Positions 13,974 to 42,071 of a stretch of 51,000 nt of DNA are shown in pieces. The stretch's first letter is position 1. Each line of letters opens with the position of its first letter. Below the pieces are notes generated by a model. That model saw only the letters and a program-made list of their open reading frames with translations. It did not search any database and was not told the DNA's origin. The DNA lies in NCBI GenBank assembly GCA_000993535.1, contig LBWG01000004.1:1-51000 (forward strand). Direction: 5' to 3'. This DNA is from Candidatus Uhrbacteria bacterium GW2011_GWF2_39_13. GTDB taxonomy: Bacteria; Patescibacteriota; Patescibacteriia; UBA9934; GWF2-40-263. The position numbers were made by a program, and so were the translations under genes.

Positions 13974-14681
13974 ATGAAAAATATCGCATCAGCCATAATG
14001 GCAATCGGCGCTCATCACGATGACAATGAACTGGTAGCCGGCGCACTGGCAAAACACAAAAATGCCGGATGGCATGTCGTTTCCGTAGTGATGACAGATG
14101 GCAGATATGCTCTAGGTAAATCCTCAGAGGAAAATATCCAGCTGCGAGAGAAGGAATCTCTTGATGCCGCTGCGCTTCTGGGAATGGAATGTGAATTCAT
14201 GCATTTGCCGGAAGGAAACGTCTACCCTCTTGAAGAAACAAGAAACGCGCTGACAAATATAATAAGAAAGCACCAGCCAGCCATAGTAATTACCCATCCG
14301 GCAAAAGATTATCACATAGACCACATGAACACCAGCCGCAGTGTACTGGAAGCTGTGTATTCATGTGAGAGTGTTCACGGCAGAGGTGAATATCCTCCAT
14401 GCCCAAAACCGTTTTTATATTATTCTGACGCATGGTTTACTCCATTTGAACCTGATGAATATGTAGACATAAGTAACTTCATAAATCTGAAACTGGACAT
14501 GTTGCGATGTCACAAATCACAGATACCTCCGGACTGGGTGGAAGATGACAACATGGTTGGTCATGCAAAACTCCAGAGCCGCACACGCGGAATCGAAGCA
14601 GGAATTAAATACGCAGAAGCTTTCCGTTTCGTACCACTCCACGCGCGTCTCAGGGTCAGCAATTTACTGGGAGAAAAATAA
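13974..14681 (+). CDS. PIG-L family N-deacetylase
   Basis: A 235-residue zinc-dependent deacetylase of the PIG-L/LmbE family, which removes N-acetyl groups from amino sugars or amino-sugar conjugates. The family motif A-H-x-D-D-x-E reads AHHDDNE (His14, Asp17), and the second half is HPAKDYHIDH (residues 108-117), giving the third zinc ligand and catalytic His. Length and motif spacing are normal. No signal peptide is seen. GGAGA shortly before the ATG serves as ribosome binding site. It ends the cytoplasmic enzyme block that began with the sulfatase, and suggests that the polymer contains N-acetylated amino sugars. Confidence 0.9.
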   Translation: MKNIASAIMAIGAHHDDNELVAGALAKHKNAGWHVVSVVMTDGRYALGKSSEENIQLREKESLDAAALLGMECEFMHLPEGNVYPLEETRNALTNIIRKHQPAIVITHPAKDYHIDHMNTSRSVLEAVYSCESVHGRGEYPPCPKPFLYYSDAWFTPFEPDEYVDISNFINLKLDMLRCHKSQIPPDWVEDDNMVGHAKLQSRTRGIEAGIKYAEAFRFVPLHARLRVSNLLGEK

Positions 14682-20815: not shown

Positions 20816-21643
20816 TCATTTTATTCCACACACCCTTATCTTTGCTCTTGCGTATTCGGTTATCTTCTCTTCAACAGGCCTAAAGTAAAGATCGACAGGG
20901 ATGAATTTCTCCCCGTTTTTCTCAAGCTCAGATGCGATTCCGCGAATGAATAAGTTCTGAAGTTCTGTAGCTATATTTATTTTTGCCACTCCGCATTCAA
21001 TGGCCTTTTTTAATTGTTCTTCCGGCACCCCTGTACCGCCGTGAAGCACAAGAGGAATTGACACACTCTTACCTATTTCCATGGCGCGTTCAATATCTAA
21101 ATAAGGTTCCTCTTTATAAAAGCCGTGGGCTGTACCGATTGAAATAGCGAGCGCGTCAACTCCCGTTTGGCCTGCAAATTTCACAGCTTCCTCCGGTGTG
21201 GAAAGTTCGACTTTGCCATCACCAAACGGTACATGTCCTATCTCCGCTTCAATAGATACTCCAGTTCTATGGGCAATATCTACAGCTCCAGCGGTCAGGT
21301 CAATATTCTCGTTTAAAGATAGTTGTGAACCGTCAATCATCACTGAAGTATAACCAATTTCTATTGCCCTTTTCAACTGTTCGATAGAAGTCCCGTGATC
21401 AAGATGCAGAACAATTGGGATATCTGTTTTTCCCGCAAGCCTTGCGGCCATAGCAGCAATAAGTTCAGCCCGCTCATCCTTGAACAGCCGCTGATAAACT
21501 TGAATTATTACTGGAGAACTCTCTTGTTCAGCCGCCTTGAAAACTCCCAAAAGCGTTTCAAGGTTAGCCACATTAAAAGCGGCAACGGCACGTTTGTTTT
21601 GTCGAGCCTTTGGCAATATTTCATTTAAAGTTACTAATGGCAT
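20816..21643 (-). CDS. Class II fructose/ketose-bisphosphate aldolase
   Basis: A 275-residue zinc-dependent aldolase of the Fba/GatY/KbaY/IolJ family, which splits a ketose phosphate to dihydroxyacetone phosphate and an aldehyde. Catalytic Asp82 and zinc ligand His83 lie in LHLDHG, Glu134 in EAEIGH, His173 in IGTAHG and His201 in LHGGTG; the NIATEL stretch forms the phosphate site. It is the last gene of the 12-gene operon, 3 bases after the Fe-S gene. With IolB and the PfkB kinase upstream, an IolJ-like role (cleaving phosphorylated 2-deoxy-5-ketogluconate to DHAP and malonate semialdehyde) is possible. Tagatose- or fructose-bisphosphate aldolase activity is the alternative. Confidence 0.9.
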   Translation of the reverse strand: MPLVTLNEILPKARQNKRAVAAFNVANLETLLGVFKAAEQESSPVIIQVYQRLFKDERAELIAAMAARLAGKTDIPIVLHLDHGTSIEQLKRAIEIGYTSVMIDGSQLSLNENIDLTAGAVDIAHRTGVSIEAEIGHVPFGDGKVELSTPEEAVKFAGQTGVDALAISIGTAHGFYKEEPYLDIERAMEIGKSVSIPLVLHGGTGVPEEQLKKAIECGVAKINIATELQNLFIRGIASELEKNGEKFIPVDLYFRPVEEKITEYARAKIRVCGIK

Positions 21644-21646
21644 ATA

Positions 21647-22669
21647 CTAGTTTCCTTTTGCTTTAAGTATGGCTTCTTCAATACTGATCGCATTGAAATC
21701 AGGCTTGGATTTTTTCAATGCGAATTTAGTATATGGGGAAAATGTGATTATCAGGTCTTTTTCCGGATTGTCTGCAAGTTCGAAAACTCTGTCACTTAAT
21801 TTTTTCATAAGTTCCGGACATATCTCGTCATAGATTACGGCGCCTTCGCCGGCAGCATATGATTCTTCGAGATTTGTTCCAAACATGTCCAGCTTATATC
21901 CGGCGGACTTCAGAAGTTCACGAGGTGCAGTGAGATTATTATAATTTTTCAGATAATCGCTGTCAATACAATATACATTTATAGATTTAGATGGCTTATT
22001 AATACTGCCAAGGGATAAAAGATATTCAGAACTATGCATAACGTTGATTCCATCTATCGGGAAATCATTCTTCAGTGCATCATAAGACGCAGGGCAACTG
22101 GTCACGAGAGTTGAAGAACAGGACGCCTTGACAGCTTTTTTGAATTTCTCGTTAACAATTGATGCATCTTCAGCAAAACCTAAAACATTCAGTGCCTTGC
22201 CGCAATCACCGCCGCTTATTGTTTTACAGTTACCAGCGAGTTGCAGAAAAGCCGATGCTATCTCAGGCTGATGATTTTTTGTGTAGCCGTCAATGTAATA
22301 AAGGACATCGCCTGTCCCTTCGACAGTGAATTCCACTTTTTTCAAATCATCGGCCACGGTTCTGATGTTTTGTGGTGCGTTTCCACTTTCGACTATATCC
22401 TGACGAGCCCCCAGAATAAGGCCGACTTCGTCATAGTGATTGACACAATGATAACGACATGATGCGCTGAGTTCCGCTTCGTAAATAGTTTTTATGTAGT
22501 CTTGATTCTTCATGTTTTTACTGTCCATACGGACTTTATCCAGAAGAAGCGCACGTCCGCGCGGAGTATCAGACTCCTTGAAAGTTACATTACCAACAGC
22601 CGCGAGGTGTCTGCACATGAAACAAAAACGGCACGCTTTAATTACATCAAGGTATTTGTCAATATTCAT
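21647..22669 (-). CDS. Fe-S protein, GlcF-like partner of an FAD oxidase
   Basis: A 340-residue protein resembling the Fe-S subunit of glycolate or lactate oxidases (GlcF) and related CCG-domain proteins. The N-terminal motif is CRFCFMC (Cys13, Cys16, Cys19), followed by PRGRALLLD typical of this family, and a second reduced motif CRYHC (Cys71, Cys75). The later half resembles the disulfide-reductase-like part (VTSCPASYDALK ... VMHSSEYL), but canonical CCG signatures are not evident. The usual pair of complete CxxCxxCxxxCP sites is not present, so it may hold fewer clusters than GlcF. It starts 2 bases after the flavoprotein gene; the two surely act together, passing electrons from a hydroxy acid or sugar acid. 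Confidence 0.8.
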   Translation of the reverse strand: MNIDKYLDVIKACRFCFMCRHLAAVGNVTFKESDTPRGRALLLDKVRMDSKNMKNQDYIKTIYEAELSASCRYHCVNHYDEVGLILGARQDIVESGNAPQNIRTVADDLKKVEFTVEGTGDVLYYIDGYTKNHQPEIASAFLQLAGNCKTISGGDCGKALNVLGFAEDASIVNEKFKKAVKASCSSTLVTSCPASYDALKNDFPIDGINVMHSSEYLLSLGSINKPSKSINVYCIDSDYLKNYNNLTAPRELLKSAGYKLDMFGTNLEESYAAGEGAVIYDEICPELMKKLSDRVFELADNPEKDLIITFSPYTKFALKKSKPDFNAISIEEAILKAKGN

Positions 22670-22671
22670 AG

Positions 22672-24117
22672 TTATCTAGCTCCTTTAAAACCCATCTTAC
22701 CGGGATTCATTATATTATTGGGATCAAGTACTTGTTTGATGTCCTGAAGTATTTTGAATGCAGGCCCATAGAGATCTTTCATCATACGGCCCAGTTTCAA
22801 TCCTACACCGTGATGCTCATTGATTACGCCGCCTTCTTTTATTGCCGCGCGGATAGCCATGTCCCAGATTTTGTTATAGAGGGCGATTGCTTCATGCGGG
22901 TCCTGCGGAGGGTTATCGATAATAAAGCGGGCATAGAGCATGCAGCCCCATTCATACCAGTGAGAAAAATGCCCGATAAATGTTGCTTGCGGAAAGTTTT
23001 CTTTCACAGTATTTTTCATTGCCCAATAAACATTCTCAATATTTGAAAATGTCGCAACTGTATCCAGAGTGCCAAACGCCTGAGGCAGCTGGAACATATA
23101 TGGAGGATAGAAAAATTTATAACGATGTTCCCACCATGCTTCACCCATTTCAGAGCCGAGATCTTCAGGTTTCTGCTCCATGGCAATTGTACTCGCCTGT
23201 TCCATTTCAAGGTCCACCATTTTTTCAGGGCCGTCAAAGCCGAACACCAGATATGCTCCCTGTTTGTCAATGCCGAGAACGCGTTTAATCAATTTTGCGG
23301 TTTCCGGTTCATCATAAAGACGTATCACACATGGATGGAGCCTGCTGGTCATAATTTTTGCGCCTGCGGCCATTGCTTCATGCATGTTTTTAAAGAGAAA
23401 CGCATGGAATTTACGGGATTCTGGTATCGGATGAATTTTCATTGTGGCCTTAGTAACAACCCCAAGAGTTCCTTCACTGCCAAGGAAAAGCTGGGTAAGG
23501 TCCGGACCTGAAGCATGGCGCGGAACTGGGAGGGTATTTATGATTTCACCTGTTGGTGTTACAACTTCCATGGACATTATCATATCTTCCATTTTTCCAT
23601 ATTTGGTGCTTAGTACCCCTGTGCCGCGGTGAGCAATAAAACCGCCGAGAGTGGCACATGCAATGGATGCAGGGAAGTGCATTGTGCTGTAACCGGCTTT
23701 TTGCACGGCCCATTCCAGATGCTGGGTATTGATACCGACTTCAACTGTCGCCGTCATTGAAACAGGATCAATACTTAAAACTTTATTCATCCGCTTCATG
23801 TCCATGATTATACCGCCATAAATAGGCAGTGCGCCGCCTTGTGAACCGGAACCGCCTCCCCACGGAATCACTGGAATGCCGTAATTGTTTGCGAGCTTAA
23901 GTATTTCAGAAACTTCCCTGGCGGAACCGGGATGAACAATAAAATCAGGTACTGTGCCTTTCTGACCCCTGTCATGCCAGAGTTCAGGCACCCAGTAGTA
24001 ATCTATAGAATGTCCGAGTTTGTCAGAGTCATCCGTTTTGACATAATCTTCGCCGACGACCCACGTCAGCTCACTGCGGAGCATTTCGTAGGTATAATTT
24101 TGATTTGACATTAACAT
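22672..24117 (-). CDS. FAD-linked oxidase, GlcD-like
   Basis: A flavoprotein of about 481 residues of the FAD-binding PCMH/vanillyl-alcohol oxidase family, like glycolate oxidase subunit GlcD or D-lactate dehydrogenase. Seen motifs are PDFIVHPGSAREVSEILKLA, the FAD-binding VIPWGGGSGSQGG, IDPVSMTATVEVG, GTLGVVTKATMKIHP and a C-terminal INEHHGVGLKLGRMM. The frame is open to 24171, but GGAG about 11 bases before the ATG at 24117 and the upstream stop at 24143 favour the shorter form. It should oxidise a 2-hydroxy acid or sugar acid, with the Fe-S protein as partner. The substrate is unknown. Confidence 0.88.
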   Translation of the reverse strand: MLMSNQNYTYEMLRSELTWVVGEDYVKTDDSDKLGHSIDYYWVPELWHDRGQKGTVPDFIVHPGSAREVSEILKLANNYGIPVIPWGGGSGSQGGALPIYGGIIMDMKRMNKVLSIDPVSMTATVEVGINTQHLEWAVQKAGYSTMHFPASIACATLGGFIAHRGTGVLSTKYGKMEDMIMSMEVVTPTGEIINTLPVPRHASGPDLTQLFLGSEGTLGVVTKATMKIHPIPESRKFHAFLFKNMHEAMAAGAKIMTSRLHPCVIRLYDEPETAKLIKRVLGIDKQGAYLVFGFDGPEKMVDLEMEQASTIAMEQKPEDLGSEMGEAWWEHRYKFFYPPYMFQLPQAFGTLDTVATFSNIENVYWAMKNTVKENFPQATFIGHFSHWYEWGCMLYARFIIDNPPQDPHEAIALYNKIWDMAIRAAIKEGGVINEHHGVGLKLGRMMKDLYGPAFKILQDIKQVLDPNNIMNPGKMGFKGAR

Positions 24118-24142
24118 GTTATCAACAGCTCCATATCTTGTT

Positions 24143-25495
24143 TTATTTATAAAAAATTTGGGAAATATCATTTTTTAAGGCGTCAAAAAGTTCATCCGTC
24201 ATGGATTGTATTTCATCCAGCGAGCACACAGCTGCCGTAAGAGGGTCCAATGCGATTGCATGAAATATTTTTCTGCGATCTCCCCCCAATGCTCCTTCAG
24301 CGGCAAGCATCTGAACATTAATCATGCAGCGATTTAATCCTGCTAGCTGCTCCGGATAATTCTCTATCCTGCAAGGCATAATTCCGGCGCCGTCAATCAG
24401 GCATGGCACTTCCACACTGCATTCAGGAGGCAGATTACTAATTAATCCGCGATTAACGACATTCAGATTAGCTGAAAAGGCATGATTCAATTCAATGGCT
24501 TTGATGATTTGAACGGCATATTCATTGCTCGGATTAAGGTCGAATTCCTTTGTGCCGGACAGTAATTTTGCTATTTCTATTTCATTGCGCTTCTGCAGTC
24601 CTGCGCAAATTTCAAGCGCTGCGCCGGATCTGCCAGCTCCCATCGCGCCCCAATCTATGCCATCTGCTGTATGAGGATAATCAACCCTGCAAAATTTGTC
24701 GATTAAGTCTTTGCGTTTGCGAATATAAGGGGTGTACTCGCTACCGTGTCCGCTTGATTCCGTAGGGAAATAGCCGAAATGCCTGAACATCTCAAAGCGG
24801 ACTTTGTCCTTATTGTAGATTGCCGGATTTTTCATGGCTTTTCTTAATAAAGGATATGCGTTTTTACCGTCTATTTCAAACTTCAGGAAGAAGGCCTGGT
24901 GGTTTATACCCGCCGCCTGATATCTGACTTTGTCTTTATCAACTCCAATATATTCCGAGAGTGCGTGAGATGTCCCCTGGACGCTATGGCAGAGACCGAT
25001 CACTTTGATTGTTTTTGCTCTTTTGCTCAAGGCAATTGTGTTGATTGACATGGGATTGACATAGTTCAGCAGATAGGAACCTGGGGCTTCCTGTTCCATA
25101 GCATCAAGTACTTCAAGCAAGGCCTTGAGTGTTCTCAGTCCGCGGAAAACCCCACCTGGACCAAGTGTATCTGCCACTACCTGATCGACACCATATTTGC
25201 GCGGAATTTCCTGTTCTATCCGCTGATGTTCCAGAGTTCCGGCGCGGAACAATGTAATAACATAATCGGCTTTATGAACTGCTTTTCTTAAATCAGTAGT
25301 GGCGGTGGTATTGGGTACGATCCCAAGTTTTTCACTTATTTTCTGTATGAAAATACTGGCGTTTTTGAGACGTTCAGCATTAATGTCCATAAGAACTATT
25401 TCTGAACTCCGCAATTTTTCGTTCATCAGAATGTCCTTGATGAAATTCTGCGCGAAAATTACACCGCCAGCCCCTATCAATACTATTTTGGGCAT
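24143..25495 (-). CDS. GH4 glycosidase, alpha-galactosidase (MelA)-like
   Basis: A 450-residue NAD- and metal-dependent glycoside hydrolase of family GH4. The N-terminal Rossmann motif is LIGAGGVIFA. Family signatures are NYVNPM (Asn147), GLCHSVQG (Cys169, metal ligand) and GINH (His199, metal ligand). The CHS triplet resembles alpha-galactosidases of MelA type rather than the 6-phospho-glucosidase group, though GH4 also includes alpha-glucosidases and alpha-glucuronidases. It is cytoplasmic, so a glycoside must be imported. It sits between a Gfo/Idh oxidoreductase (12 bases) and the GlcD-like gene (25 bases) and probably frees the sugar that the operon degrades. Confidence 0.92.
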   Translation of the reverse strand: MPKIVLIGAGGVIFAQNFIKDILMNEKLRSSEIVLMDINAERLKNASIFIQKISEKLGIVPNTTATTDLRKAVHKADYVITLFRAGTLEHQRIEQEIPRKYGVDQVVADTLGPGGVFRGLRTLKALLEVLDAMEQEAPGSYLLNYVNPMSINTIALSKRAKTIKVIGLCHSVQGTSHALSEYIGVDKDKVRYQAAGINHQAFFLKFEIDGKNAYPLLRKAMKNPAIYNKDKVRFEMFRHFGYFPTESSGHGSEYTPYIRKRKDLIDKFCRVDYPHTADGIDWGAMGAGRSGAALEICAGLQKRNEIEIAKLLSGTKEFDLNPSNEYAVQIIKAIELNHAFSANLNVVNRGLISNLPPECSVEVPCLIDGAGIMPCRIENYPEQLAGLNRCMINVQMLAAEGALGGDRRKIFHAIALDPLTAAVCSLDEIQSMTDELFDALKNDISQIFYK

Positions 25496-25507
25496 AAATA
25501 TGTTCCT

Positions 25508-26671
25508 TTATTTTATTTGTCCGTTATCGAAATATTTTATGATTTTGGATGGGAGAGACGGAATGTCTTTCGGGGCATTTCCGTTCCGCATTGACAGATG
25601 TCCCAGAACACCTGCCGCCACCGCGTTTCTTGCCGCTATCGGCGAGGTATTCGGAAGAATACCATCTCTGACGAAATTGATAAACGCCGTAATGATTGCA
25701 GGATCAGAACCTCCATGACCGCCGCTTATCGCCTTGAGTTTGTGGATGATATCGGGATTGCTGCGAGAGCCGCGCTGTGTCCATACATGAATTTCGCAAT
25801 CGCCCTTGTCTCCCACATTTTCCACACGCCCGCGAGTTCCGATAAAAGTATAATTGCGTTCGGAATCTGGAGTGTAAAAACATTGCGTATATGATGCATG
25901 CACCCCATTGTCCAGCGAAAGCATGAGCATGTTATGGTCTTCAATGTCAATATGCGGAGCCAGATCATTCTGTGAAAGAGGCGGCCAGCATGTTTCTTTC
26001 CATGCCTTGTCACGATCCGGGGCTTCATTTGCTTTGCGCCTTCCACATTTGTCATATACCGATAATTTTCCCATGCCTATGACTCTGTCAGTATATCCGC
26101 CAGCCAGCCAGTGAATGATATCAATGTCATGTGCGCCTTTCTGCAAGAGGAGGCCATTTGTATGGGCCTGCTCGGAACACCAGCTTCTGAAATAGCAGTT
26201 GCCATAGCCGATAAAATGGCGGCACCATACGGCCTGAATATCTCCGATTATGCCCGAATCAATGATTTCCTTCATTTTCAGGACAAATGGCATATAGCGC
26301 ATGTTATGTCCCAGGAAAAGTTTTGTCCTGTTCTCATAGGCCGCGTTCAGTATGCGGTCGCAGCCTTCAATTGTTATTGCCATCGGTTTCTCAAGATACA
26401 CGGCCTTTCCGGCGTTCAGCGCCGCAACGGCTATGTCTTCATGCTGATAATCGCGGGTCATTATGAAAACCGCGTCCAGGTCTTTTCTTTTGAGTAACGC
26501 GTTATAATCTTCTGTAAGGAAAATATTCTTCCCGGCCTTACCTTGAAAAGTATCAAGAGCTTTACGGTCAAGATCGGCGGCGGCGATAATTTTAACGTTG
26601 TCAGAAGAAAAGCTCTGTATCATTCCGGAGCGTTTGCTCAAACCGATTATTCCTATTTTGAATGTCTTCAT
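25508..26671 (-). CDS. Gfo/Idh/MocA family oxidoreductase
   Basis: A 387-residue NAD(P)-dependent oxidoreductase. The start KIGIIGLSKRSG is a Rossmann fold with a loosened G-x-G-x-x-G. EKP is at residues 94-96 and the active site GAHDID has His181 and Asp184. An insertion around residues 195-225 includes KCGRRKANEAP and makes the protein a little longer than usual. The ATG overlaps the stop of the amidohydrolase by ATGA. In inositol operons this place is taken by IolG, but the sequence alone does not show inositol as substrate. Cytoplasmic. Confidence 0.87.
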   Translation of the reverse strand: MKTFKIGIIGLSKRSGMIQSFSSDNVKIIAAADLDRKALDTFQGKAGKNIFLTEDYNALLKRKDLDAVFIMTRDYQHEDIAVAALNAGKAVYLEKPMAITIEGCDRILNAAYENRTKLFLGHNMRYMPFVLKMKEIIDSGIIGDIQAVWCRHFIGYGNCYFRSWCSEQAHTNGLLLQKGAHDIDIIHWLAGGYTDRVIGMGKLSVYDKCGRRKANEAPDRDKAWKETCWPPLSQNDLAPHIDIEDHNMLMLSLDNGVHASYTQCFYTPDSERNYTFIGTRGRVENVGDKGDCEIHVWTQRGSRSNPDIIHKLKAISGGHGGSDPAIITAFINFVRDGILPNTSPIAARNAVAAGVLGHLSMRNGNAPKDIPSLPSKIIKYFDNGQIK

Positions 26672-27522
26672 TTGTTTCCTCTGTTTTTTAATATTGAATC
26701 ATAAATCTTCTTCGCATTGCCATAAAATATTTTTTCTCTTTCAGTTTTTTCACCCCAGCGGTAATAGTATGAGCCGACAAGTTCCAGAAACAGTTTCCAG
26801 AAGTTTATCATCTTAAGAATATTCAGATATTCTCTTTTTTCTCCGTAACAGAGCGCGTCAGTAGCAAAGAGTATCTTGTCGTTGAAGTATCTCGTCGGCA
26901 ATCCGTCATTGCATTTCCTGTCAAGGTTTTTTATGAGCCATTCAACATCCTTGCGATAGCCGCTCAGGTCATGGTAGATATTGGGATAATAATATAAGTT
27001 CTGCGCTGTTTCCTCAAGCCAGGGATAGCCGAGATGCCCGCCTATGAGAGTCAATCCCGGAAACGCCGCCGCTATTGACGACAATTGCGCGGGTTGCATA
27101 TTAGTCGGGCCAAATGAAAGATTATCTCCCATTTTCCCTTTCGCGCATTTTTCAACCATTCCGGTATGAAAAAGTACCGGCATTCCGAGCTTTTCAGCGC
27201 GCTCATAGAAAGGAAAATATTCCGGCGCGTCGTATGGTTTTTCGGGACGGTATGCCTTCAATCCGAAAAAGCCTTTTTCTTTGAGACGGTCAATATCATC
27301 GGGTGTTTTTCGCAGGTCGAGATAAGCGAAGGGAATATATACGCCCGGGAATTTTGCTGAGACTTCAATTATTTCATCTTCGCTCGCAAAATCATGGGTT
27401 GTTAATCCGCATCCGCTGACGTCCATCAACCATACCTGTTCCAGATTGCCATCGGCAATAATTTTTTTCAATAAATTGAAATCAGGGTTTTTAACTAAAT
27501 GAGCATGCGCGTCAATTACCAT
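26668..27522 (-). CDS. Amidohydrolase family metal-dependent hydrolase
   Basis: A 284-residue TIM-barrel hydrolase of the amidohydrolase-2 type (PF04909-like). Metal ligands are the HxH pair in DAHAHL (His6, His8), His119 in LFHTG, His163 in GGHLGYPW and Asp222 in FATDAL; the lysine of GLKAY (Lys89) is in the usual place. Family members hydrolyse lactones or decarboxylate ring acids. In a sugar-acid operon, lactone hydrolysis after dehydrogenase action is the most natural role (inference). The stop overlaps the next gene by ATGA. No signal peptide is seen. Confidence 0.85.
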   Translation of the reverse strand: MVIDAHAHLVKNPDFNLLKKIIADGNLEQVWLMDVSGCGLTTHDFASEDEIIEVSAKFPGVYIPFAYLDLRKTPDDIDRLKEKGFFGLKAYRPEKPYDAPEYFPFYERAEKLGMPVLFHTGMVEKCAKGKMGDNLSFGPTNMQPAQLSSIAAAFPGLTLIGGHLGYPWLEETAQNLYYYPNIYHDLSGYRKDVEWLIKNLDRKCNDGLPTRYFNDKILFATDALCYGEKREYLNILKMINFWKLFLELVGSYYYRWGEKTEREKIFYGNAKKIYDSILKNRGNK

Positions 27523-27533
27523 AATCTTTCCCT

Positions 27534-28388
27534 CTATATAATAGTCTTAGGCGCGCTTGCTGTTCCTATATCAGTCGCGACAATATAATTTTTGTGATTT
27601 CTGATGTAAGTAACGGGATAATCATCGCCGGGAACTCCCAACACTGAAATTCTTAATACGGTATTTGCCCAATCCATTCCCTTGTGTTCATTGCGGGTCA
27701 TCAGAAGCATTTTTCTTGCGCTGAGACACTGTTTCATGCCGAGAGTAATCGCACGTCTTGGAAAGTTAATAAGATTGCCTCCAAGCCCGTGGCGCACGGC
27801 ATCAACTGTTCTGGTAAAGTCATTGATATTTAGAATTCTCGGGTCTGTATCTTTCACACCTGCTAACGGTTCGTTAAAAGCGACATGACCATGGATGCCG
27901 ATTCCCCCGTAGCAGACTTCAATTCCGCCGGCCTTATCTATCATTGAAGAAAGTTTATCCAGATTTTCCGGTGTTGGAAAAATTCTTTGTTCTTCCGGCA
28001 TCAACAATTCATTATCAATCAAATTAAAGAACAAGGGGCCTATTTGCCTGCGAAAACTTAAAGGATGAGTTATCGGAACGAGTCTGTCATTATCATCACA
28101 ATATTCATCCATAAAGAAAAACCAGCAATTTTTCAAGTTTATGCGTTCAGCATTGATTTTTGCGGCCATTAACTTGTATGGCTGTGTCGGGCCTACAGGC
28201 ATTATAAAAGCGGCAGGGCCATCTTTTTTTTCCGCTTTACGGAATTCTTTAAGCATTTCTTCGGCGAGATATTCATAAAGTTCGTTAAGGGTATCTTTTA
28301 CCATCAGATGTCCTTCGCTCTTTTCAATTAATTCATCAACTGAAAGGCTGAAGAGGTTTCTGATTTCGCTGCTTCTATCCGGTATCAT
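27534..28388 (-). CDS. NagB-like isomerase/deaminase family protein with altered active site
   Basis: A 284-residue protein of the glucosamine-6-phosphate deaminase/6-phosphogluconolactonase fold. Recognised pieces are MPVGPTQPY (phosphate loop), FFMDEY (Asp94 matching the catalytic D72 of E. coli NagB) and GIGIHGHVAFNEP. In NagB this last motif has D-G-H; here the Asp (D141 in E. coli) is His166, while the following His (168) and Glu (173) are kept. So it may be a sugar-phosphate isomerase or lactonase rather than a true deaminase. The start at 28388 is chosen because GGAG lies 8 bases before it; a GTG at 28394 overlaps the kinase stop. It follows the FGGY kinase, which might supply its phosphorylated substrate. 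Confidence 0.8.
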   Translation of the reverse strand: MIPDRSSEIRNLFSLSVDELIEKSEGHLMVKDTLNELYEYLAEEMLKEFRKAEKKDGPAAFIMPVGPTQPYKLMAAKINAERINLKNCWFFFMDEYCDDNDRLVPITHPLSFRRQIGPLFFNLIDNELLMPEEQRIFPTPENLDKLSSMIDKAGGIEVCYGGIGIHGHVAFNEPLAGVKDTDPRILNINDFTRTVDAVRHGLGGNLINFPRRAITLGMKQCLSARKMLLMTRNEHKGMDWANTVLRISVLGVPGDDYPVTYIRNHKNYIVATDIGTASAPKTII

Positions 28389-28393
28389 TTTCA

Positions 28394-29878
28394 CTACTCC
28401 ATATCTTTATTGTTTATATTCCGGTAAACCCCGGCTAATTCGTCATGAATGTTTCTGTAATGCCTGAATTGCTTTGCATAAAATTCCGCATTATCCGCAT
28501 CAGGCAGAATTTTCCGGTCAAATTTCAGACATTGCCTGACCGCGGAAATTTCATCAGGAAAAACACCTGTTCCGACGCCGGCCAATAACGCACTCCCGAA
28601 TGAAGCGTCGCAAATAGACGGACACTTGACAGGGGCATTAAATACATCACTGATAATTCGGCACCAGAGTTCGTTTTTAGCACCCCCTCCTATCAATATG
28701 AATTCATGCGTTTCAAGGCCCATTTTCTCAATGGTACTGTAACAGTCACGCAATGAAAAAGCCACCCCTTCAAGCAATGCCCTTGAAAGATCCGCTTTGC
28801 ATGATCCCATTGACAATCCTGTGAAACTTCCTCTCAGAAAAGGGTCCCAGTAAGGCGAACGCTCCCCCATCAGGTACGGATGAAAAAATACTCCGCCGCT
28901 TCCCGGCGGAGATTTTGCCGCCAGCTGATTCAGTTCCTGATAAGTCGTTTCAGGCGTACAGAAATTATCTCTGAACCAACGTTGACAGGCTGCCGCCGCG
29001 TTAGTGGCGGTAACAGTGTACCACATACCGGGAACGACATGCGAATATGTCAATGTTTCGGGGTGTGGATGCGCATTGGAAGTCATGACATTCACATTTC
29101 CTGCGGTAGCCAGTTTTAGTATGCACTGTCCTGATTCAATAGCGCCGGAAGCATAATCTTCCACTGCCGAATCGCTGGCCCCCATGATGACGGGAATACC
29201 TTCAGGTAATCCTGTTTCCAATGCGGCTCCCGCAGTCAGTTTTCCTGCTATGTCAGTCGGTCTTCCGATGCGGGGCAATGCCTTTACTGATATATCGGCC
29301 AAAGCGCAAAGTTCCTCTGACCAGCAGGAGTTTTTCATGTCCCAGAATAATGTTCCCTGGGATTCTATGCAGTCACAAGCCATTTCACCTGTCAGAAGGA
29401 AACGGATATAATCTTTTACAAAAAGGATATGTTTAACCTTCTTGAGATTTTCCGGTTCATTATTTTTCAGCCAGAGCATCTGGGGAAGCGTCCAGGTCGG
29501 AGTTGGAGTTTGGTATGCGGTATTGAAAATGAGAGCGAAATAATTCTTTTTCAGAAATCCGCATTCTTTTACGCTTCTCTGGTCTGTCCAGATAATAGTC
29601 GGACGAATGACGTTCAATTTGCCATCCAGAAGCACAGCTCCGTGTGTATAACTGTCAAGAGCGACTGCCGCGATTTTCTCGCGGTGTTTTAATTTTCTCA
29701 GGATTGTACACATTGTTGCATGCCAGTCTGCCGGGTTCTGTTCCGCATAGCCGGGTTGCGGATGACTGGTGTTATATTCACCGGAAACGCTGTCAATCAG
29801 ATTACCCCCAGTATCAATCAGAGTAACCTTGCAGCCGCCTGTCCCGAAATCTATGCCTAATAGTAAATCTTTGTTCAT
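28394..29878 (-). CDS. FGGY-family carbohydrate kinase
   Basis: A kinase of about 494 residues of the FGGY family (xylulokinase, gluconokinase, glycerol kinase and relatives). The N-terminal ATPase motif is LLLGIDFGTGGCKVTLID, then PGYAEQNPADW, WTDQRS, the sugar-binding LWDMKN, MGASDSAVEDYASGAI and the C-terminal LIGGGAKNELWCRIISDVFNAPV. It is closest in look to xylulokinase-like members. The ATG at 29878 overlaps the IolB stop by ATGA, favouring it over the frame start at 29893. It phosphorylates a free sugar or polyol; the identity is not readable from sequence. A PfkB kinase in the same operon means two separate phosphorylation steps. Confidence 0.9.
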   Translation of the reverse strand: MNKDLLLGIDFGTGGCKVTLIDTGGNLIDSVSGEYNTSHPQPGYAEQNPADWHATMCTILRKLKHREKIAAVALDSYTHGAVLLDGKLNVIRPTIIWTDQRSVKECGFLKKNYFALIFNTAYQTPTPTWTLPQMLWLKNNEPENLKKVKHILFVKDYIRFLLTGEMACDCIESQGTLFWDMKNSCWSEELCALADISVKALPRIGRPTDIAGKLTAGAALETGLPEGIPVIMGASDSAVEDYASGAIESGQCILKLATAGNVNVMTSNAHPHPETLTYSHVVPGMWYTVTATNAAAACQRWFRDNFCTPETTYQELNQLAAKSPPGSGGVFFHPYLMGERSPYWDPFLRGSFTGLSMGSCKADLSRALLEGVAFSLRDCYSTIEKMGLETHEFILIGGGAKNELWCRIISDVFNAPVKCPSICDASFGSALLAGVGTGVFPDEISAVRQCLKFDRKILPDADNAEFYAKQFRHYRNIHDELAGVYRNINNKDME

Positions 29879-30669
29879 TTTGCCGCAATCCATTTGTGTT
29901 CAGGGTCTATTACCGATAGAAATTTACGATGATTCTGTCCTGCCATTATCCAGAGGTAATACATAGTATAACCGGGCGCATTTATAACCGGATGGTAGCC
30001 GCGCGGAATAAGCGTTGTATCATTTTGTTTGACGGTACATGTAACGTCAATGGATTTGTCGTCAGTATAAATTTTCTGAATACCATAACCTTGTTCTGGA
30101 TTGAAACGGAAAAAATAAATTTCCTCCATATCAACTTCAAGCGGCAAATTGTCAAAGTCATGTCTATGCGGCGGATAACTCGCATGATTGCCGGAAGGAA
30201 CAAAAGCTTCCCCTATAAAAAGATGTTCTGCCGGCAATTCATCAGTCAATATCAAATAAGCGTCGCGCTGGTAATTTTCCTTTCCAATATGGACTTCTTT
30301 GACTTGCGACGGAGATATCATATATGGTTCACTCTTCAATGTTGAAGGCGATGCCGTCCAGGCTATTTCCAAATCTGTTGCGGCTTTTATTGTATATGTC
30401 ATGCCGGCCGGGATATAAACAGTATAAGGCTTTCCGTAAAAGACATTTTTTCTGCCATCAGTAATTGAGAATTTGAATTTTTTTCCGTATATCTCACAGT
30501 TGCCCCCCAGAACAATCAGAGCTGTTTCAAATTTCCCGGTGTCGGAGGAATATTCTTTGTCTTTCTGCAGATTGATAATTCCGAATTCAGTCAACTGAAT
30601 ATCTGCATCACCAATGTTTGATATCTTTGCAAAACCATTCTTTTTGTTATAATGCTTCAGGTAAATCAT
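29875..30669 (-). CDS. iolB: 5-deoxy-glucuronate isomerase
   Basis: A 264-residue bicupin of the KduI/IolB family, matching IolB in length (about 270) and motifs. IolB converts 5-deoxy-D-glucuronate to 5-dehydro-2-deoxy-D-gluconate in inositol breakdown. The metal site is built from SYPPHRHD (His168, His170), MEEIYFF (Glu183) and the later PRGYHPV (His226); FRFNPEQGYGIQKIYTDD and YYLWIMAGQ are typical of IolB rather than KduI. Cytoplasmic. It overlaps the FGGY kinase by ATGA. The other inositol genes iolD and iolE are not in this window, so a related sugar acid cannot be ruled out. Confidence 0.9.
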   Translation of the reverse strand: MIYLKHYNKKNGFAKISNIGDADIQLTEFGIINLQKDKEYSSDTGKFETALIVLGGNCEIYGKKFKFSITDGRKNVFYGKPYTVYIPAGMTYTIKAATDLEIAWTASPSTLKSEPYMISPSQVKEVHIGKENYQRDAYLILTDELPAEHLFIGEAFVPSGNHASYPPHRHDFDNLPLEVDMEEIYFFRFNPEQGYGIQKIYTDDKSIDVTCTVKQNDTTLIPRGYHPVINAPGYTMYYLWIMAGQNHRKFLSVIDPEHKWIAAK

Positions 30670-30683
30670 ATATTAATCCATTC

Positions 30684-32036
30684 TTAAAGTTGTGTAAGTT
30701 CAAGTTCCAGAAGTTTAGCAAAAAACTTAAGATCTTTAGCAATATCTCCACGCGCCATCACGTAATGATGTTCAAAACCATTTTCAATCAGAGTTTCTGT
30801 TATTTCAGATGCGCTTCGTCTGAATTTTACTTTCAACGGATTTCCTTTCAGAAGCTGTTCAGTTTCAATCCCGTCACCGCTGATGGTCATAAGTCTGAAA
30901 ACTTTACGGTCCCGGGATTCGCTGATGCGTAATACTGTTACCGGACCTGCTTCAAGAGGAAACTCGCATGCCAGTCCCTTCTTGTCTCCTCCGTCTATTA
31001 TGGAATGTTTGTTTATAGTTGGTTTGCATCCCTTGCGGCAGAGAGCAACCGGAGCCGCGCCGCAATGCCAGAAAAGTCCTGTGTCTCCATCAGGATCAAA
31101 AGAAATAAGGTCACAGAAAAATGAAGGTTTGCCAGTCAACGATTCGGAAATCAGCATGGCTAGGGCCCCATACATATCCCCTTCGCAGGCAGCGGGGATA
31201 TTTAATCCTGTAAGGCATCCGAGCAGATGACAGACTCCAATGCCATACAAGTCACTGAATTCAGGCCAGCACCGTACGGTCCATGCGTCAAGATGGTATT
31301 TTTCAGTCAGTTCCATAAAGGACGCCAGCAGCGCTGTGCCTTTATTGAGTTCCTCCTCAGAAACATTTCCGCATACGCAGCCATTCATTAAAACTTCTCG
31401 TGCCTTTACAAGGCTTTTTTTGCTTGCTGTTTCTGTGCGTTTTACAATTTCCAGAAGAGTAACGCCTTCAGCTTCCACACCGAATTTTTCCCGCATTTCA
31501 AGTTCGCTGAAATTCGATGTATAAAAACCCGGTACTCGCCCGCCCGCAGAACCTATTCTGACATTGCGGAGATGATTTACGCAGGCTATAACATTTATTC
31601 TGCGTTGTATTTCTGGAACAGCCGACGCAGCATTACCATAGATAAAATCATATTTCAAATTCATTTTCCAGAGCGCATGAGCGTTCATATTTGTGGCGCA
31701 GAAGCTATTTGCTTCTATGCGTTTTCCTTTCATTGCCGGTTCCGGCTCGGACCAGAAAAGTACAGGTTTCCTGAGTTTTGCCGCCATGCCGGGAACAATA
31801 CCGCCTAAGGAAAAGGTTATGTAATGTGCTATGATTACATCAACTTTTTCATCTTCAAACTTACGGCATATTTTTTCGGCTTCCGCTTCATTCTGGACAA
31901 GCTGTCCGCAATCTATGATTTCAACATTATCCAATGTTTCCAGCGCCTTTAGTGAAGTCTTTCTTCTTTTTTCAAGTAAATCCGTTATCCAACTGCCTTT
32001 GACAAGCGAAAGATAAGCAGCTTTTATTTTTTTCAT
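30684..32036 (-). CDS. L-fucose/L-arabinose isomerase-family protein
   Basis: A protein of about 450 residues of the FucI/AraA superfamily, which interconverts aldoses and ketoses with a divalent metal. The Rossmann-like N-terminal part (VDVIIAHYITFSLGGIVPGMAAKLRKPVLFWSEPEP), the middle LDAWTVRCWPEF and PAACEGDMYGALAMLI, and the C-terminal ISFDPDGDTGLFWHCG are typical of the wider family. It lacks the strict signatures of true FucI or AraA, so the substrate is open. The longest frame begins at 32105, but the MKK start at 32036, with AAAAGGA upstream and only 4 bases from the kinase stop, is favoured. It probably makes the ketose for one of the operon's kinases. Confidence 0.82.
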   Translation of the reverse strand: MKKIKAAYLSLVKGSWITDLLEKRRKTSLKALETLDNVEIIDCGQLVQNEAEAEKICRKFEDEKVDVIIAHYITFSLGGIVPGMAAKLRKPVLFWSEPEPAMKGKRIEANSFCATNMNAHALWKMNLKYDFIYGNAASAVPEIQRRINVIACVNHLRNVRIGSAGGRVPGFYTSNFSELEMREKFGVEAEGVTLLEIVKRTETASKKSLVKAREVLMNGCVCGNVSEEELNKGTALLASFMELTEKYHLDAWTVRCWPEFSDLYGIGVCHLLGCLTGLNIPAACEGDMYGALAMLISESLTGKPSFFCDLISFDPDGDTGLFWHCGAAPVALCRKGCKPTINKHSIIDGGDKKGLACEFPLEAGPVTVLRISESRDRKVFRLMTISGDGIETEQLLKGNPLKVKFRRSASEITETLIENGFEHHYVMARGDIAKDLKFFAKLLELELTQL

Positions 32037-32040
32037 TTTA

Positions 32041-32949
32041 TTAAAATCCTTTTTCAGATAAAAATTTTTCAGTTTCGGATAATCTCGGGATACCGGTTCT
32101 GCCACCGAATTTTGTACACTTCAAGGCCGATACGGCGGAGGCAAAGTTAATGCATTCAGTCCAGTTGCCGCCACTGAGATATTTATAAATAAAAGCGCCA
32201 TGAAAAACATCTCCCGCTCCGGTGGTGTCAATTGCATGAACCTTGAATGCCGGACATCTCAGAATGTTTTTTCCGTCAAAACCGATAGAACCTTTTTCTC
32301 CCATTGTAACAGCAGAAAAAATACAATTGAACTTAAAGAGTTTTTTAGCGGCATCTTCCATATCGGCTTCCCCTGTATACCGCAATGCAAATTTTTCAGA
32401 GGCTATAATTATGTCTGATAATCCGAGAAGTTTTTCTATACCGGGAACAATTGTACCGGCATCTATCGAAACGGTTACTTTGTTTTTCCTCGCAATTTGG
32501 GCAGCCGCAATAGCCGCTTCCGTCTGATGCCCGTCAAGGTGCAGTACTTTAGCTTTTTTTATCATCTCAATGTCGACTTCATCCGGCGACAACGCTTCTA
32601 CATTGCCTTTTGTCCATACGATACTGCGTTTGCCGCCGGCTTTCTCTATCCAACAGAAAGCGGCCGGAGATTCCGTACCCTTGCGGAGTTTCATAGCTTT
32701 GATATTAATGCCTTCGGCCGCAAGTCCATCTCTAATAGATTTTCCTCTCTCGTCATCGCCATAGGTGCTGATAAGCGCGGTTTTTGCGCCGAGACGCGCC
32801 GCCGCGACAATCGCAGTCGCCGCAGGTCCGCCGCCCTGAACAATAGTTTGAATAATTTCAACTTTATCATCCTGCGGTATATATGGTACCAGACAGAGAT
32901 AATCTACGCTGCAATATCCGATACCTATTATATCTGAATGGAATTCCAT
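32041..32949 (-). CDS. PfkB-family (ribokinase-like) sugar kinase
   Basis: A 302-residue PfkB/ribokinase-family kinase. The N-terminal signature includes QGGGPAATAIVAAARLGAK (near residue 40), and the second signature DTTGAGDVFHGAF (residues 241-253) contains the catalytic base Asp247. The family includes ketohexokinase, KdgK and IolC. In this operon, with IolB downstream and a class II aldolase at the end, an IolC-like role phosphorylating 5-dehydro-2-deoxygluconate is plausible but not shown. The ATG shares one base with the regulator stop (TAATG), so translation is coupled. Confidence 0.9.
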   Translation of the reverse strand: MEFHSDIIGIGYCSVDYLCLVPYIPQDDKVEIIQTIVQGGGPAATAIVAAARLGAKTALISTYGDDERGKSIRDGLAAEGINIKAMKLRKGTESPAAFCWIEKAGGKRSIVWTKGNVEALSPDEVDIEMIKKAKVLHLDGHQTEAAIAAAQIARKNKVTVSIDAGTIVPGIEKLLGLSDIIIASEKFALRYTGEADMEDAAKKLFKFNCIFSAVTMGEKGSIGFDGKNILRCPAFKVHAIDTTGAGDVFHGAFIYKYLSGGNWTECINFASAVSALKCTKFGGRTGIPRLSETEKFLSEKGF

Positions 32950-33752
32950 TATTTCTTATGCCTTTCCCTGTTTTTTTCAGCCAATATTAATTTGATACCG
33001 TTTTTCTTGAATTTTCCTGCTTCTTCTGAATTAAGTTCATAGTCACTTATGACAGCATCAAATACGTCTAAATCAGTTACTTTCAACAAACAATCACGCT
33101 GATATTTGCTGGAATCAACAAGACAATATTTTCCCAGCCCGTTTTTTATAGCCGCCTTGAGAGTGCCAAGGATGTAGTCATTTGTAGTCGAAAGACCTCT
33201 TTCCGAGGAAAATCCAGCGCCCGATATAAAAATCTTTTTGAAAGTCATTTTTGACACGAACTCCTGAACCAGATCACCAAGAAAGGCATTTATCTGATAA
33301 TCAAGTCTGCCGCCTGTAGATATAAATTTTATTTTGCCGTTCGAATGTTTACCTAGAGATTGAACATGCACCGAATTGCTTATAATAGTTAAATCCTCTA
33401 ATGGATTTTCATAAAGCATTTCGGCAAGATAATAACATGTTGAAGAGGCATCAAGAAAAATGGTATCTCCGGGTAATATCTTTTTAATCGCGCTTAAAGC
33501 AATTGCTTTTTTCAGAGCTCCATTTTCCTTTAATCTTTTTTCATATTCAATTTCGATGGATTTGTGAGCTGTTACTTCAATACAGCCATAAGATTTTTTT
33601 ATGAAACCATTTTTTTCAAGTATATCAAGATCCCTGTGTATTGTCGCTTTCGAGGCGTTGGTATTATTAATCACTTCATCAATCTGATGAAATTTTTTTG
33701 ACTGAAGCATCTTTAGTAAGTTATCTCTTCTTATCTCTGGATTTCTTTGCAT
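32949..33752 (-). CDS. DeoR/GlpR-family transcriptional regulator
   Basis: A 267-residue repressor of the DeoR family. An N-terminal winged helix-turn-helix (residues about 5-57, RRDNLLKMLQSKKFHQIDEV ... ATIHRDLDILEKNGFI) is followed by the sugar-phosphate sensing DeoR C-terminal domain (GDTIFLDASSTCYYLAEML, TIISNSVHVQSLG, STGGRLDY, FISGAGFSSERGLST, LVDSSKYQRDC). It is the first gene of the operon behind the promoter at 33784-33811, so it is autoregulated in all likelihood, with a phosphorylated intermediate as inducer. A palindrome at 33826-33841 is a candidate operator. Confidence 0.92.
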   Translation of the reverse strand: MQRNPEIRRDNLLKMLQSKKFHQIDEVINNTNASKATIHRDLDILEKNGFIKKSYGCIEVTAHKSIEIEYEKRLKENGALKKAIALSAIKKILPGDTIFLDASSTCYYLAEMLYENPLEDLTIISNSVHVQSLGKHSNGKIKFISTGGRLDYQINAFLGDLVQEFVSKMTFKKIFISGAGFSSERGLSTTNDYILGTLKAAIKNGLGKYCLVDSSKYQRDCLLKVTDLDVFDAVISDYELNSEEAGKFKKNGIKLILAEKNRERHKK

Positions 33753-33783
33753 ATGCTCATTGCCTTATCTTTGGATTAAATAA

Positions 33784-33811
33784 ATTATACAATATATTTT
33801 TTTAATGTCAA
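33784..33811 (-). promoter_or_regulatory. Sigma70-type promoter of the 12-gene operon
   Basis: On the - strand TTGACA (33811-33806) and TATAAT (33789-33784) are separated by 16 bases, both boxes matching consensus exactly. Initiation would be near 33777, about 25 bases before the DeoR start codon. The A/T-rich spacer and leader fit a strong, repressible promoter. Confidence 0.75.
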
Positions 33812-33922: not shown

Positions 33923-33987
33923 AGCAATCTAATATTATATACATTGTTTCACTATCATTCCTCTGAGATGATAGTGAATCTTTTTTT
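33923..33987 (+). ncRNA. Putative small RNA of about 65 nucleotides
   Basis: Inferred from a promoter at 33889-33916 and a terminator ending at 33987. The predicted RNA has an A/U-rich single-stranded 5' part of about 25 bases and then an 11-base-pair terminator stem. The hairpin loop holds UCCUCU, which could pair with Shine-Dalgarno sequences of AGAGG type, as in several Gram-positive regulatory RNAs. It lies between two - strand sugar operons with an operator-like palindrome at its promoter. It resembles no RNA family known to me, and no expression evidence is available. Confidence 0.4.
33948..33987 (+). terminator. Rho-independent terminator, + strand
   Basis: A perfect 11-base inverted repeat TTCACTATCAT / ATGATAGTGAA (33948-33958 and 33968-33978) with a 9-base loop is followed by TCTTTTTTT. 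The T run is only on the + strand side, so it terminates + strand transcripts. It lies 15 bases past the stop of the - strand oxidoreductase and may also end that message poorly. Confidence 0.65.
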
Positions 33988-40247: not shown

Positions 40248-42071
40248 ATGAAAATAGATTTTTCAGAATACAGGAAGAAGGTGATGGGCTGCTGGTTGGG
40301 AAAAGCCGTTGGCGGCACCCTCGGGGGACCTGTCGAAGGTATATGCAAACCCATGTCTCTAACTTTTTACGACCCTGTCCCTGAAGAAATGATGCCGAAT
40401 GACGACCTTGATTTACAGGTTGTGTGGCTGGAAACGCTTCTCAGAAAAGGCCTGCCCGTTAACAGAAAAACACTCTCCGAAGCATGGATTGAGCACATAC
40501 ACATGTATTGGGATGAATACGGCGCGTCCATAAGAAATATTTCACAGGGGATTTATCCTTCTGCAAGTGGTTATTTCGACAACGGATTTACCGCCGGAAT
40601 GGGAGCGGCGATAAGGACGGAAATATGGGCATGCCTTGCCCCCGGAGATCCTGCGCTTGCTGTCAGGCTCGCCACAGAAGACGCCTGTGTTGACCATGCG
40701 GAAGAGGGTGTTTATGCCACACTTTTCATAGCCGCCATTGAAAGCGCGGCTTTTGTGGAAAGCAATAGGGATAAACTTATAGAGACAGGCCTTTCCTTCA
40801 TACCGTCTTCATGCAGAGTAGCAAAAGCCGTAAAGGACACGATTAAATGGTGGCATCGAAAAAAGAACTTGCATAAAGTCCGTGAAATTCTGATTGAAAA
40901 GCACGCGAACCAGAACTGGACTGATGTCGCCATTAACATGGCGTTCATAATCCTCGGTTGGTACGCGGGAGGTAATGATTTCAATGAAATATTATGTTCC
41001 ACCGTCAACTGCGGACACGACGCCGATTGCACCGCCGCGACAATAGGCTCCATACTCGGCATAATAAATCCGTCCTCAATAGGTGAAAAGTGGCTTAAGC
41101 CCATAGGCCGCGATCTGATACTTTCCCCCAATATAGTCGGCATGCATCACAGAAAAAACCTTGATGAGTTTTCTGAACAGATTACAAGGCTTTCATGTGA
41201 TGTCCTCAAATATTATTCTTCGGAAACATCTTTCGGCGGCGCAGGCGAAACAAATTATCTCAGAACACCATTAAACAATAATTACACTTCAATAACTGAT
41301 ATTGAAAACAATGAAGCTCTTATTTCAACTTCGCCGTTTCCGATGGTACTCGAATATCCTGAATGCATCGCATTGAAACCCGAAGAGAACAAAGAATTTT
41401 CAGTGAAAATACAGAACCCGTTCAATAAAAATATTAAAATTAAATTACATGTTTCAGTCCCCGACGGATGGACTCTGAATAATCTGGATTTTAATTTTGT
41501 TCTTGGAAAATCTTCCCTGAAAAAATGTTATTTCAAAGTAAAAGCGCCTGCGTCTGATACCATCAGGGCTTATCGCAACCCGATTGATTTCACGATTGAA
41601 GCCGCGGGCTTAAAATGGACAGTTTCAGCCGGGCTCCCGATGAGTATTCCATGGCTTTGCAAAAGAACAGGCAAAGTCCCTGAAAAATGTCCCGGATTTT
41701 CTCGGAAAGACAAGCTGAAAATAATCGAAGCCGCCGGGCATTTTGCAAATATCCCTGACGGTCCCTGCGTTTTTACAACAGACGTGAAAACACCTTTTGA
41801 CATAATCTACAGGATTGTAGTCCAGTCGAACAGGGAAACAAAAATATGGATTGACGGGGATTTGAAAAATTTGCACAAAGGTCTTTTCCGAGTCCCGGCT
41901 CTGCATCGTTCGGAAGAAACACAGAAAGACATAGCCCTTTCAAGAGGCTGGCACAGGTTTACAATCGCTCTTGGAAATGGCAAAGGCGGACAGCTTTTCA
42001 CCGGCATAGGTTATCCCGGCTCATGGAAATGGACGGAAAACATAGAATATCGTCAGCCTATATTAAAATAA
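40248..42071 (+). CDS. ADP-ribosylglycohydrolase-fold protein fused to a beta-sandwich domain
   Basis: A 607-residue protein. Residues 1-330 belong to the ADP-ribosylglycohydrolase family: GCWLGKAVGGTLGGPVEG at the start, the first metal motif PNDDLDLQ (Asp52, Asp53, Asp55, compare TDDT) and the second NCGHDADCTAA (Asp258, Asp260, compare GGDTDT). Residues about 370-450 look like a NEW3/CARDB-like beta sandwich (ENKEFSVKIQNPFNKNIKIKLHVSVPDGWTL), and a further beta domain ends the protein. Such a fusion within a sugar-oxidation operon suggests it cleaves an N- or O-glycosidic bond in a small glycoside, not ADP-ribosylated protein. It has no signal peptide. AGAGGA precedes the ATG. Confidence 0.82.
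   Translation: MKIDFSEYRKKVMGCWLGKAVGGTLGGPVEGICKPMSLTFYDPVPEEMMPNDDLDLQVVWLETLLRKGLPVNRKTLSEAWIEHIHMYWDEYGASIRNISQGIYPSASGYFDNGFTAGMGAAIRTEIWACLAPGDPALAVRLATEDACVDHAEEGVYATLFIAAIESAAFVESNRDKLIETGLSFIPSSCRVAKAVKDTIKWWHRKKNLHKVREILIEKHANQNWTDVAINMAFIILGWYAGGNDFNEILCSTVNCGHDADCTAATIGSILGIINPSSIGEKWLKPIGRDLILSPNIVGMHHRKNLDEFSEQITRLSCDVLKYYSSETSFGGAGETNYLRTPLNNNYTSITDIENNEALISTSPFPMVLEYPECIALKPEENKEFSVKIQNPFNKNIKIKLHVSVPDGWTLNNLDFNFVLGKSSLKKCYFKVKAPASDTIRAYRNPIDFTIEAAGLKWTVSAGLPMSIPWLCKRTGKVPEKCPGFSRKDKLKIIEAAGHFANIPDGPCVFTTDVKTPFDIIYRIVVQSNRETKIWIDGDLKNLHKGLFRVPALHRSEETQKDIALSRGWHRFTIALGNGKGGQLFTGIGYPGSWKWTENIEYRQPILK

Follow-up and report, generated by a model that had tools for sequence, protein, structure and literature searches.

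A conserved operon with an IolB-family isomerase, recurring in Lentisphaeria, as a candidate for the breakdown of an anionic, uronate-like sugar

Positions 1 to 51,000 of the contig LBWG01000004.1, which belongs to the assembly GCA_000993535.1 of Candidatus Uhrbacteria bacterium GW2011_GWF2_39_13, carry on the minus strand twelve tightly packed open reading frames (20816-33752) that form an operon for the breakdown of a sugar, which is probably an acidic one. The whole stretch of 51,000 nucleotides is called the window in the following. The frames and their order are as given in a preliminary description of the window made from its letters, and since the order of the core genes recurs in dozens of genomes, the gene set lies far beyond chance. 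The operon starts with a DeoR-family regulator (32949..33752; DeoRC 112.9 bits, with HTH_DeoR), followed by a PfkB-family kinase (32041..32949; PfkB 168 bits), an aldose isomerase with a predicted AraA/FucI fold, called FucI-like, whose nearest curated family is SftI (30684..32105), an IolB-family isomerase of a clade marked by the signature YYLW (29875..30669; TIGR04378 247.8 bits, cut-off 205), and an XylB-like FGGY kinase scoring above the curated xylulokinase cut-off (28394..29893; TIGR01312 389.7 bits, cut-off 380.25). Next come four genes that are accessory to the core: a NagB-like protein with GIHGH for GNDGH (27534..28394), its partner, an Amidohydrolase-2 protein (26668..27522; PF04909, Amidohydro_2, 87 bits), a Gfo/Idh/MocA oxidoreductase recognised by profile search (25508..26671), and a GH4 glycosidase of the MelA subfamily (24143..25495; PRK15076 491 bits, cut-off 486). 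The core continues with a flavin adenine dinucleotide (FAD) protein resembling GlcD and the synthase of alkyl-dihydroxyacetone phosphate (alkyl-DHAP) (22672..24171), a GlcF-like iron-sulfur (Fe-S) subunit that matched no Pfam family (21647..22669), and a class II ketose-bisphosphate aldolase without the DPR arginine (20816..21643; TIGR00167 244 bits, cut-off 216). By profile the names given earlier are broadly right, but those of the FucI-like, NagB-like, GlcD and GlcF proteins are loose, as these are distant members of their namesake families.

With the starts as listed, the gaps between the frames are 2-14 bases and the junctions DeoR/PfkB, PfkB/FucI-like, IolB/FGGY, FGGY/NagB-like, amidohydrolase/Gfo and GH4/GlcD overlap. 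The starts of orthologues suggest that the FucI-like, FGGY and GlcD frames are listed too early, and with an orthologue-type start of GlcD its gap to GH4 would be about 25 bases. On the 5' side of the DeoR gene lies a sigma-70-like box on the minus strand (33784..33811; TTGACA-16-TATAAT, a 12/12 match with a spacer of 16). The single consensus promoter proposed before thus has its perfect box, but promoter-like sites in the region (39 versus 31.9 +/- 5.5 in shuffles) are no more frequent than by chance and the GlcF gene itself contains another 12/12 box, so that an operon promoter at 33811-33784 is no more than plausible. Between this box and the upstream Gfo/Idh gene an inverted repeat (33948-33978; stem of 12 pairs, T run) is likely a terminator separating the Gfo/Idh unit from the operon.

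The NagB-like gene, for which a scan of genome contigs kept 80 loci, was discarded as a marker of the operon as it proved accessory, and GlcD turned out to be the better marker. In a GlcD search of the class, orthologues of 66-87% identity were found in 57 of 198 Lentisphaeria genomes, and they occur also in genomes of the phylum outside Lentisphaeria. A close relative of the window IolB is present in 64 of the 198, including 57/57 of those with GlcD (hypergeometric probability 2e-42, which ignores kinship and is a guide only). The recurring core consists of DeoR (divergent or leading), PfkB, the AraA/FucI-fold isomerase, IolB, FGGY, sometimes GH4, GlcD, GlcF and the class II aldolase. Counted over 36 loci with sufficient flank, IolB was found 33 times, FGGY and GlcF 34 times each, the aldolase 30, PfkB 28, the isomerase 22 and DeoR at least 20 times; PfkB, IolB, FGGY, GlcD, GlcF and the aldolase stand together in 25/36. 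The gene set is therefore kept across the class and the phylum. More than one in four of the searched Lentisphaeria genomes carry its core, including several of ruminant gut origin, and no description of it was found in the literature searched. The assumption that all twelve genes make up one pathway was not supported by this comparison. L032 has all twelve families at one locus, and L005 and L015 have most of them, but apart from the window L032 is the only locus with the NagB-like, amidohydrolase and Gfo/Idh genes within the core. The NagB-like pair adjoins the core divergently in L005 and L015 and is separate from it in many genomes. Most core operons lack Gfo and the amidohydrolase, and a core GH4 (at least 50% identity) is confined to the window and its four relatives L032, L128, L131 and L132.

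The window contig (G000 contig C4) seems to be mis-binned, with Lentisphaeria genes in a small assembly like those of the candidate phyla radiation (CPR). Its NagB-like protein shares 77-80% identity with proteins from Lentisphaeria and Victivallales metagenome-assembled genomes (MAGs), and it encodes pilin-like proteins of the same kind as those near related loci. Another contig of the assembly (C1) reads like a small CPR-type genome, and the genomes related to the assembly have 0.5-1.6 Mb and are mostly near complete. The absence of a gene from the window's own assembly hence means nothing: a check for iol genes in this apparently CPR-size genome was set aside as uninformative, and the iol genes were searched in relatives.

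In these related genomes iolD exceeded its cut-off in 0/18 and 0/8 (24 distinct genomes, two being shared) and iolE in 0/14, its best score being 91.5 bits at a cut-off of 290. Among the genomes searched are two of nearly a single contig, G150, which has a 5.73 Mb contig, and G398, where one contig covers 3.75 Mb of about 3.8 Mb; in some control genomes the same searches do exceed the cut-offs. The absence of IolD and IolE noted from the window was thereby borne out. A tree of few sequences separates the IolBs of the operon, at a support of 0.999, from a small sample of four comparison IolBs, two of which are encoded in annotated iol operons (Sphingobium, Ligilactobacillus) while the other two come from records without annotation; the IolBs of Priestia and Lachnospira take a position between both groups. 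YYLW is found in 50/50 operon IolBs as well as in Priestia and Lachnospira, while the four comparison IolBs have YYLN. The Priestia gene stands on an annotated plasmid with altronate dehydratase and tagaturonate reductase. Moreover, KduI, which is related to IolB, helps Escherichia coli to convert galacturonate and glucuronate (PMC3578941). The clade, the Priestia context and the analogy to KduI together suggest that YYLW IolBs handle uronates. Inositol use can therefore not be concluded from an iolB annotation by itself, and the YYLW and YYLN signatures may separate two kinds of IolB.

The kinase and the aldolase point to a substrate of similar type. Among solved structures, PfkB is closest to the sulfofructose kinase YihV (137 bits; ribokinase 110 bits), which phosphorylates a ketose carrying an anionic group at C6. 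The catalytic motif D-[TS]-TGAGD is found in 36/39 PfkB copies. The positions of N109 and R138 of YihV, which we take to be ligands of the sulfonate, are changed in 35/35 copies, with a lysine possibly kept at a shift of one residue. In class II bisphosphate aldolases the arginine of the DPR motif binds the second phosphate. This motif (DPRx[FY] near the C terminus) is present in KbaY and GatY and absent in 50/50 operon aldolases, 48 of which have a Q-x-x-R motif instead; YdjI of E. coli K-12, which carries the annotation octuluronate-1-phosphate aldolase, lacks it as well. Kinase and aldolase alike would be compatible with a ketose 1-phosphate that bears a carboxylate at the far end.

The remaining core enzymes are less easily assigned. 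The AlphaFold2 model of the isomerase (pLDDT 84) resembles L-arabinose isomerase (TM 0.79), then D-arabinose/L-fucose isomerases, and the motifs CEGD, WHCG and EHH are kept in 32/36 copies; the protein barely matches the Pfam fucose/arabinose isomerase domains, and it reaches 231 bits in its nearest curated family SftI (sulfoquinovose isomerase, cut-off 700). By predicted fold and motifs it falls into the AraA/FucI superfamily. The GlcD label given before was not upheld: the nearest solved relative is alkyl-DHAP synthase (222 bits), followed by D-lactate dehydrogenases, and the curated GlcD profile gives 221 bits at a cut-off of 568. While D-2-hydroxyacid dehydrogenases carry the metal motif GHxGDGNxH, the window protein reads GHFSHWYEW and has lost one of the histidines, and its HHG and SHxY motifs resemble alkyl-DHAP synthase. 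The model of GlcF resembles EtfD, LutA and HdrB, which fits an electron-transfer subunit; CxFCxMCR is found in 60/62 copies. A Mesorhizobium plasmid also unites FGGY, GlcD and a GlcF-like gene (44, 49 and 20% identity), and Roseibium and Shinella have FGGY beside GlcD, so that the trio is a module of its own.

We tentatively propose that the operon serves the regulated catabolism of a sugar that is anionic and uronate-like, a reading that we favour while rating it somewhat below an even chance; its reactions are deduced from gene content, conservation and residue patterns. IolB would isomerise a uronate-type aldose to a 2-ketouronate, PfkB would phosphorylate this at C1, and the aldolase would cleave the ketouronate-1-phosphate to DHAP and a C3 acid semialdehyde, which would be tartronate semialdehyde in case of a plain hexuronate and malonate semialdehyde in case of a 5-deoxyhexuronate. 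In a second arm the isomerase and the GlcD/GlcF-FGGY module may bring in another sugar as ketose phosphate, with the electrons leaving via the Fe-S subunit. In the window, GH4 and the NagB-like, amidohydrolase and Gfo proteins would form an added front end for particular glycosides. The reading is favoured by the recurrence of the core in class and phylum with IolB in 57/57 GlcD genomes, the absence of IolD and IolE in relatives, the IolB clade with its Priestia relative, the uronate conversion by KduI, a PfkB nearest to YihV, the YdjI-like aldolase, the joint occurrence of FGGY, GlcD and GlcF also in Mesorhizobium, and a major facilitator superfamily (MFS) transporter upstream in two operons, whose nearest subfamily is that for galactonate, at a score far below the cut-off. 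Several points weigh against it. The uronate arm leaves the roles of the isomerase, FGGY and GlcD/GlcF unexplained, no enzyme for the C3 semialdehyde is encoded within the operon, IolB scores above the curated cut-off for 5-deoxyglucuronate isomerase, and one annotated plasmid, that of Priestia, is the sole uronate context outside the phylum. The strongest point against a simple hexuronate as substrate is that UxaC is encoded in 54/57 operon genomes, so that common hexuronates already have a route, which also weakened the idea that IolB simply stands in for UxaC.

A bolder form of the uronate reading, which we regard as possible though doubtful, is an undescribed pathway that bypasses reduction and dehydration by IolB isomerisation, C1 phosphorylation and direct cleavage of a ketouronate-1-phosphate to DHAP and tartronate semialdehyde, that is joined to the alkyl-DHAP-synthase-like flavoenzyme with its Fe-S partner and FGGY, and that has spread in Lentisphaeria and related classes. 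In line with the preliminary description, no described pathway with this gene set was found in the literature searched, which included no paper joining alkyl-DHAP synthase with xylulokinase in an operon, none linking Lentisphaerae with iolB and inositol, and none joining tagaturonate, tartronate semialdehyde, DHAP and a kinase. The operon offers a concrete enzyme set for in vitro tests of a new breakdown of sugar acids.

The alternative that survives best, though we consider it rather unlikely, is that there is no single pathway and that IolB/PfkB/aldolase, the isomerase and FGGY/GlcD/GlcF are separate arms under one regulator, serving several sugars released together from one glycan. Mesorhizobium has FGGY-GlcD-GlcF without the rest, the isomerase is absent or encoded elsewhere in some genomes, and the accessory genes vary between the operons; however, most loci preserve the order IolB-FGGY-GlcD-GlcF-aldolase, and every Lentisphaeria genome with GlcD also has this IolB, suggesting a joint function. 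We give a low probability to a rebuilt inositol pathway, in which Gfo/Idh would oxidise an inositol, unrelated enzymes (TIM barrels, the amidohydrolase) would replace IolE and IolD, and IolB, PfkB and the aldolase would yield DHAP and malonate semialdehyde. That these three enzymes can form the lower inositol route had been stated before and remains one of several live options: the IolB score is in its favour, DeoR, PfkB and class II aldolase are combined as in iol operons, and Gfo/Idh and TIM-barrel genes adjoin several core operons. Yet IolD and IolE were not found over cut-off in the related genomes tested, most core operons have neither Gfo nor the amidohydrolase, PfkB reaches 124.5 of the 300 bits required for IolC, and the IolB clade, which differs from the comparison IolBs, together with the Priestia context favours a uronate. 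Equally improbable in our judgement is a deoxyhexose-type pathway, in which the isomerase would give a ketose, FGGY its 1-phosphate and the aldolase DHAP and lactaldehyde, GlcD/GlcF would oxidise lactate to pyruvate, and IolB/PfkB would be a side branch. While the AraA/FucI fold, an aldolase without the arginine for the C6 phosphate, and a rhamnosidase-like gene near some operons agree with it, the isomerase is missing in 14/36 loci compared to 3/36 for IolB, GlcD lacks one histidine of the hydroxyacid dehydrogenase metal motif, and FGGY is XylB-like rather than fuculokinase-like. A sulfo-Embden-Meyerhof-Parnas (sulfo-EMP)-type pathway, in which an SqvD-like isomerase, a YihV-like kinase and an SqiA-like class II aldolase would convert sulfoquinovose to DHAP and sulfolactaldehyde, was tempting by the nearest relatives of isomerase and kinase and was set aside as very improbable on scores and residues, as no SqvD/SftI exceeds the 700-bit cut-off in 24 genomes (operon isomerases score 231-271 bits), the presumed sulfonate ligands of YihV are changed in every copy, and neither a sulfolactaldehyde enzyme nor a sulfoquinovosidase of a known family was recognised in the operon. 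In its favour count the mixed SqvD/SqiA clusters that have been described (PMC9594981).

The surroundings of the core are diverse. The window NagB-like protein scores 75 bits against NagB at a cut-off of 237 and belongs to a broad family with the GIHGH motif in Lentisphaeria, Kiritimatiellae, Lokiarchaeota, Anaerolineae and others. An amidohydrolase is often its partner, and the count of this motif is biased by one search pattern that contained HGHVAFNE. In many Lentisphaeria loci the amidohydrolase follows the NagB-like gene and Gfo/Idh is often third in the unit, and a GH123-type glycosidase lies closely behind the pair in L004, L005, L020, L028 and L039 (representative L004:2024-3667). A ComA (phosphosulfolactate synthase) gene is found a few genes from a NagB-like gene (L044:5922-6761, the same cluster in L048). 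Two loci of Lokiarchaeota MAGs, L051 and L058, have a FucI/SftI-like isomerase with 28-29% identity to that of the window near genes for the transaldolase/fructose-6-phosphate aldolase (FSA) family and NagB-like proteins, possibly a cluster in archaea similar to the sulfo-transaldolase (sulfo-TAL) type. Several core operons are followed by a different NagB (26-32% identical, GFNGH motif) and a true NagA (285-298 bits, cut-off 226), which hints at an N-acetylated sugar being processed along with the core; this arrangement, seen behind the aldolase in L128, L154, L174, L207 and others, often includes ThuA, Gfo/Idh or TIM-barrel genes. An SIS protein similar to glucokinase regulators and N-acetylmuramic acid (MurNAc)-6-phosphate etherases adjoins the core at L128:13294-14994 and L174:12125-13813. 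Elsewhere the window encodes a PIG-L de-N-acetylase (13974-14681), an ADP-ribosylglycohydrolase-family protein (40248-42071) and a large lectin/glycosidase-like protein (42824-46165).

Among known systems, the lower part of the myo-inositol (iol) pathway, IolB-IolC-IolJ with the DeoR-type regulator IolR, shares with the operon the combination of IolB, PfkB, class II aldolase and DeoR. It differs in that the operon genomes tested have no IolD/IolE, their IolB is of another clade and PfkB stays under the IolC cut-off, and the window operon adds the isomerase, FGGY and GlcD/GlcF. The sulfo-EMP and sulfo-EMP2 pathways use an isomerase, a kinase and an aldolase of related families, but the window proteins score far under the cut-offs and the presumed sulfonate ligands are changed; IolB, FGGY and GlcD/GlcF are no part of these pathways. 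The plasmids of Mesorhizobium, Roseibium and Shinella resemble the operon in the adjoining FGGY and GlcD genes, and Mesorhizobium also in a collinear GlcF-like gene, whereas no IolB, PfkB, isomerase or class II aldolase is annotated in the stretches examined. On the Priestia megaterium plasmid pBP01R2b, a hexuronate pathway with IolB in the place of UxaC has a YYLW IolB within a sugar operon and no iolD/iolE in the stretch; unlike the window, it continues via tagaturonate reductase and altronate dehydratase and has no PfkB/aldolase arm. The E. coli cluster ydjEFGHIJK has no IolB, isomerase, FGGY or GlcD/GlcF, but it resembles the operon in the position of a DeoR-type regulator, in the PfkB kinase YdjH and in the aldolase YdjI without the DPR arginine, and its annotated substrate is a 2-ketouronate, as we propose for the window operon.

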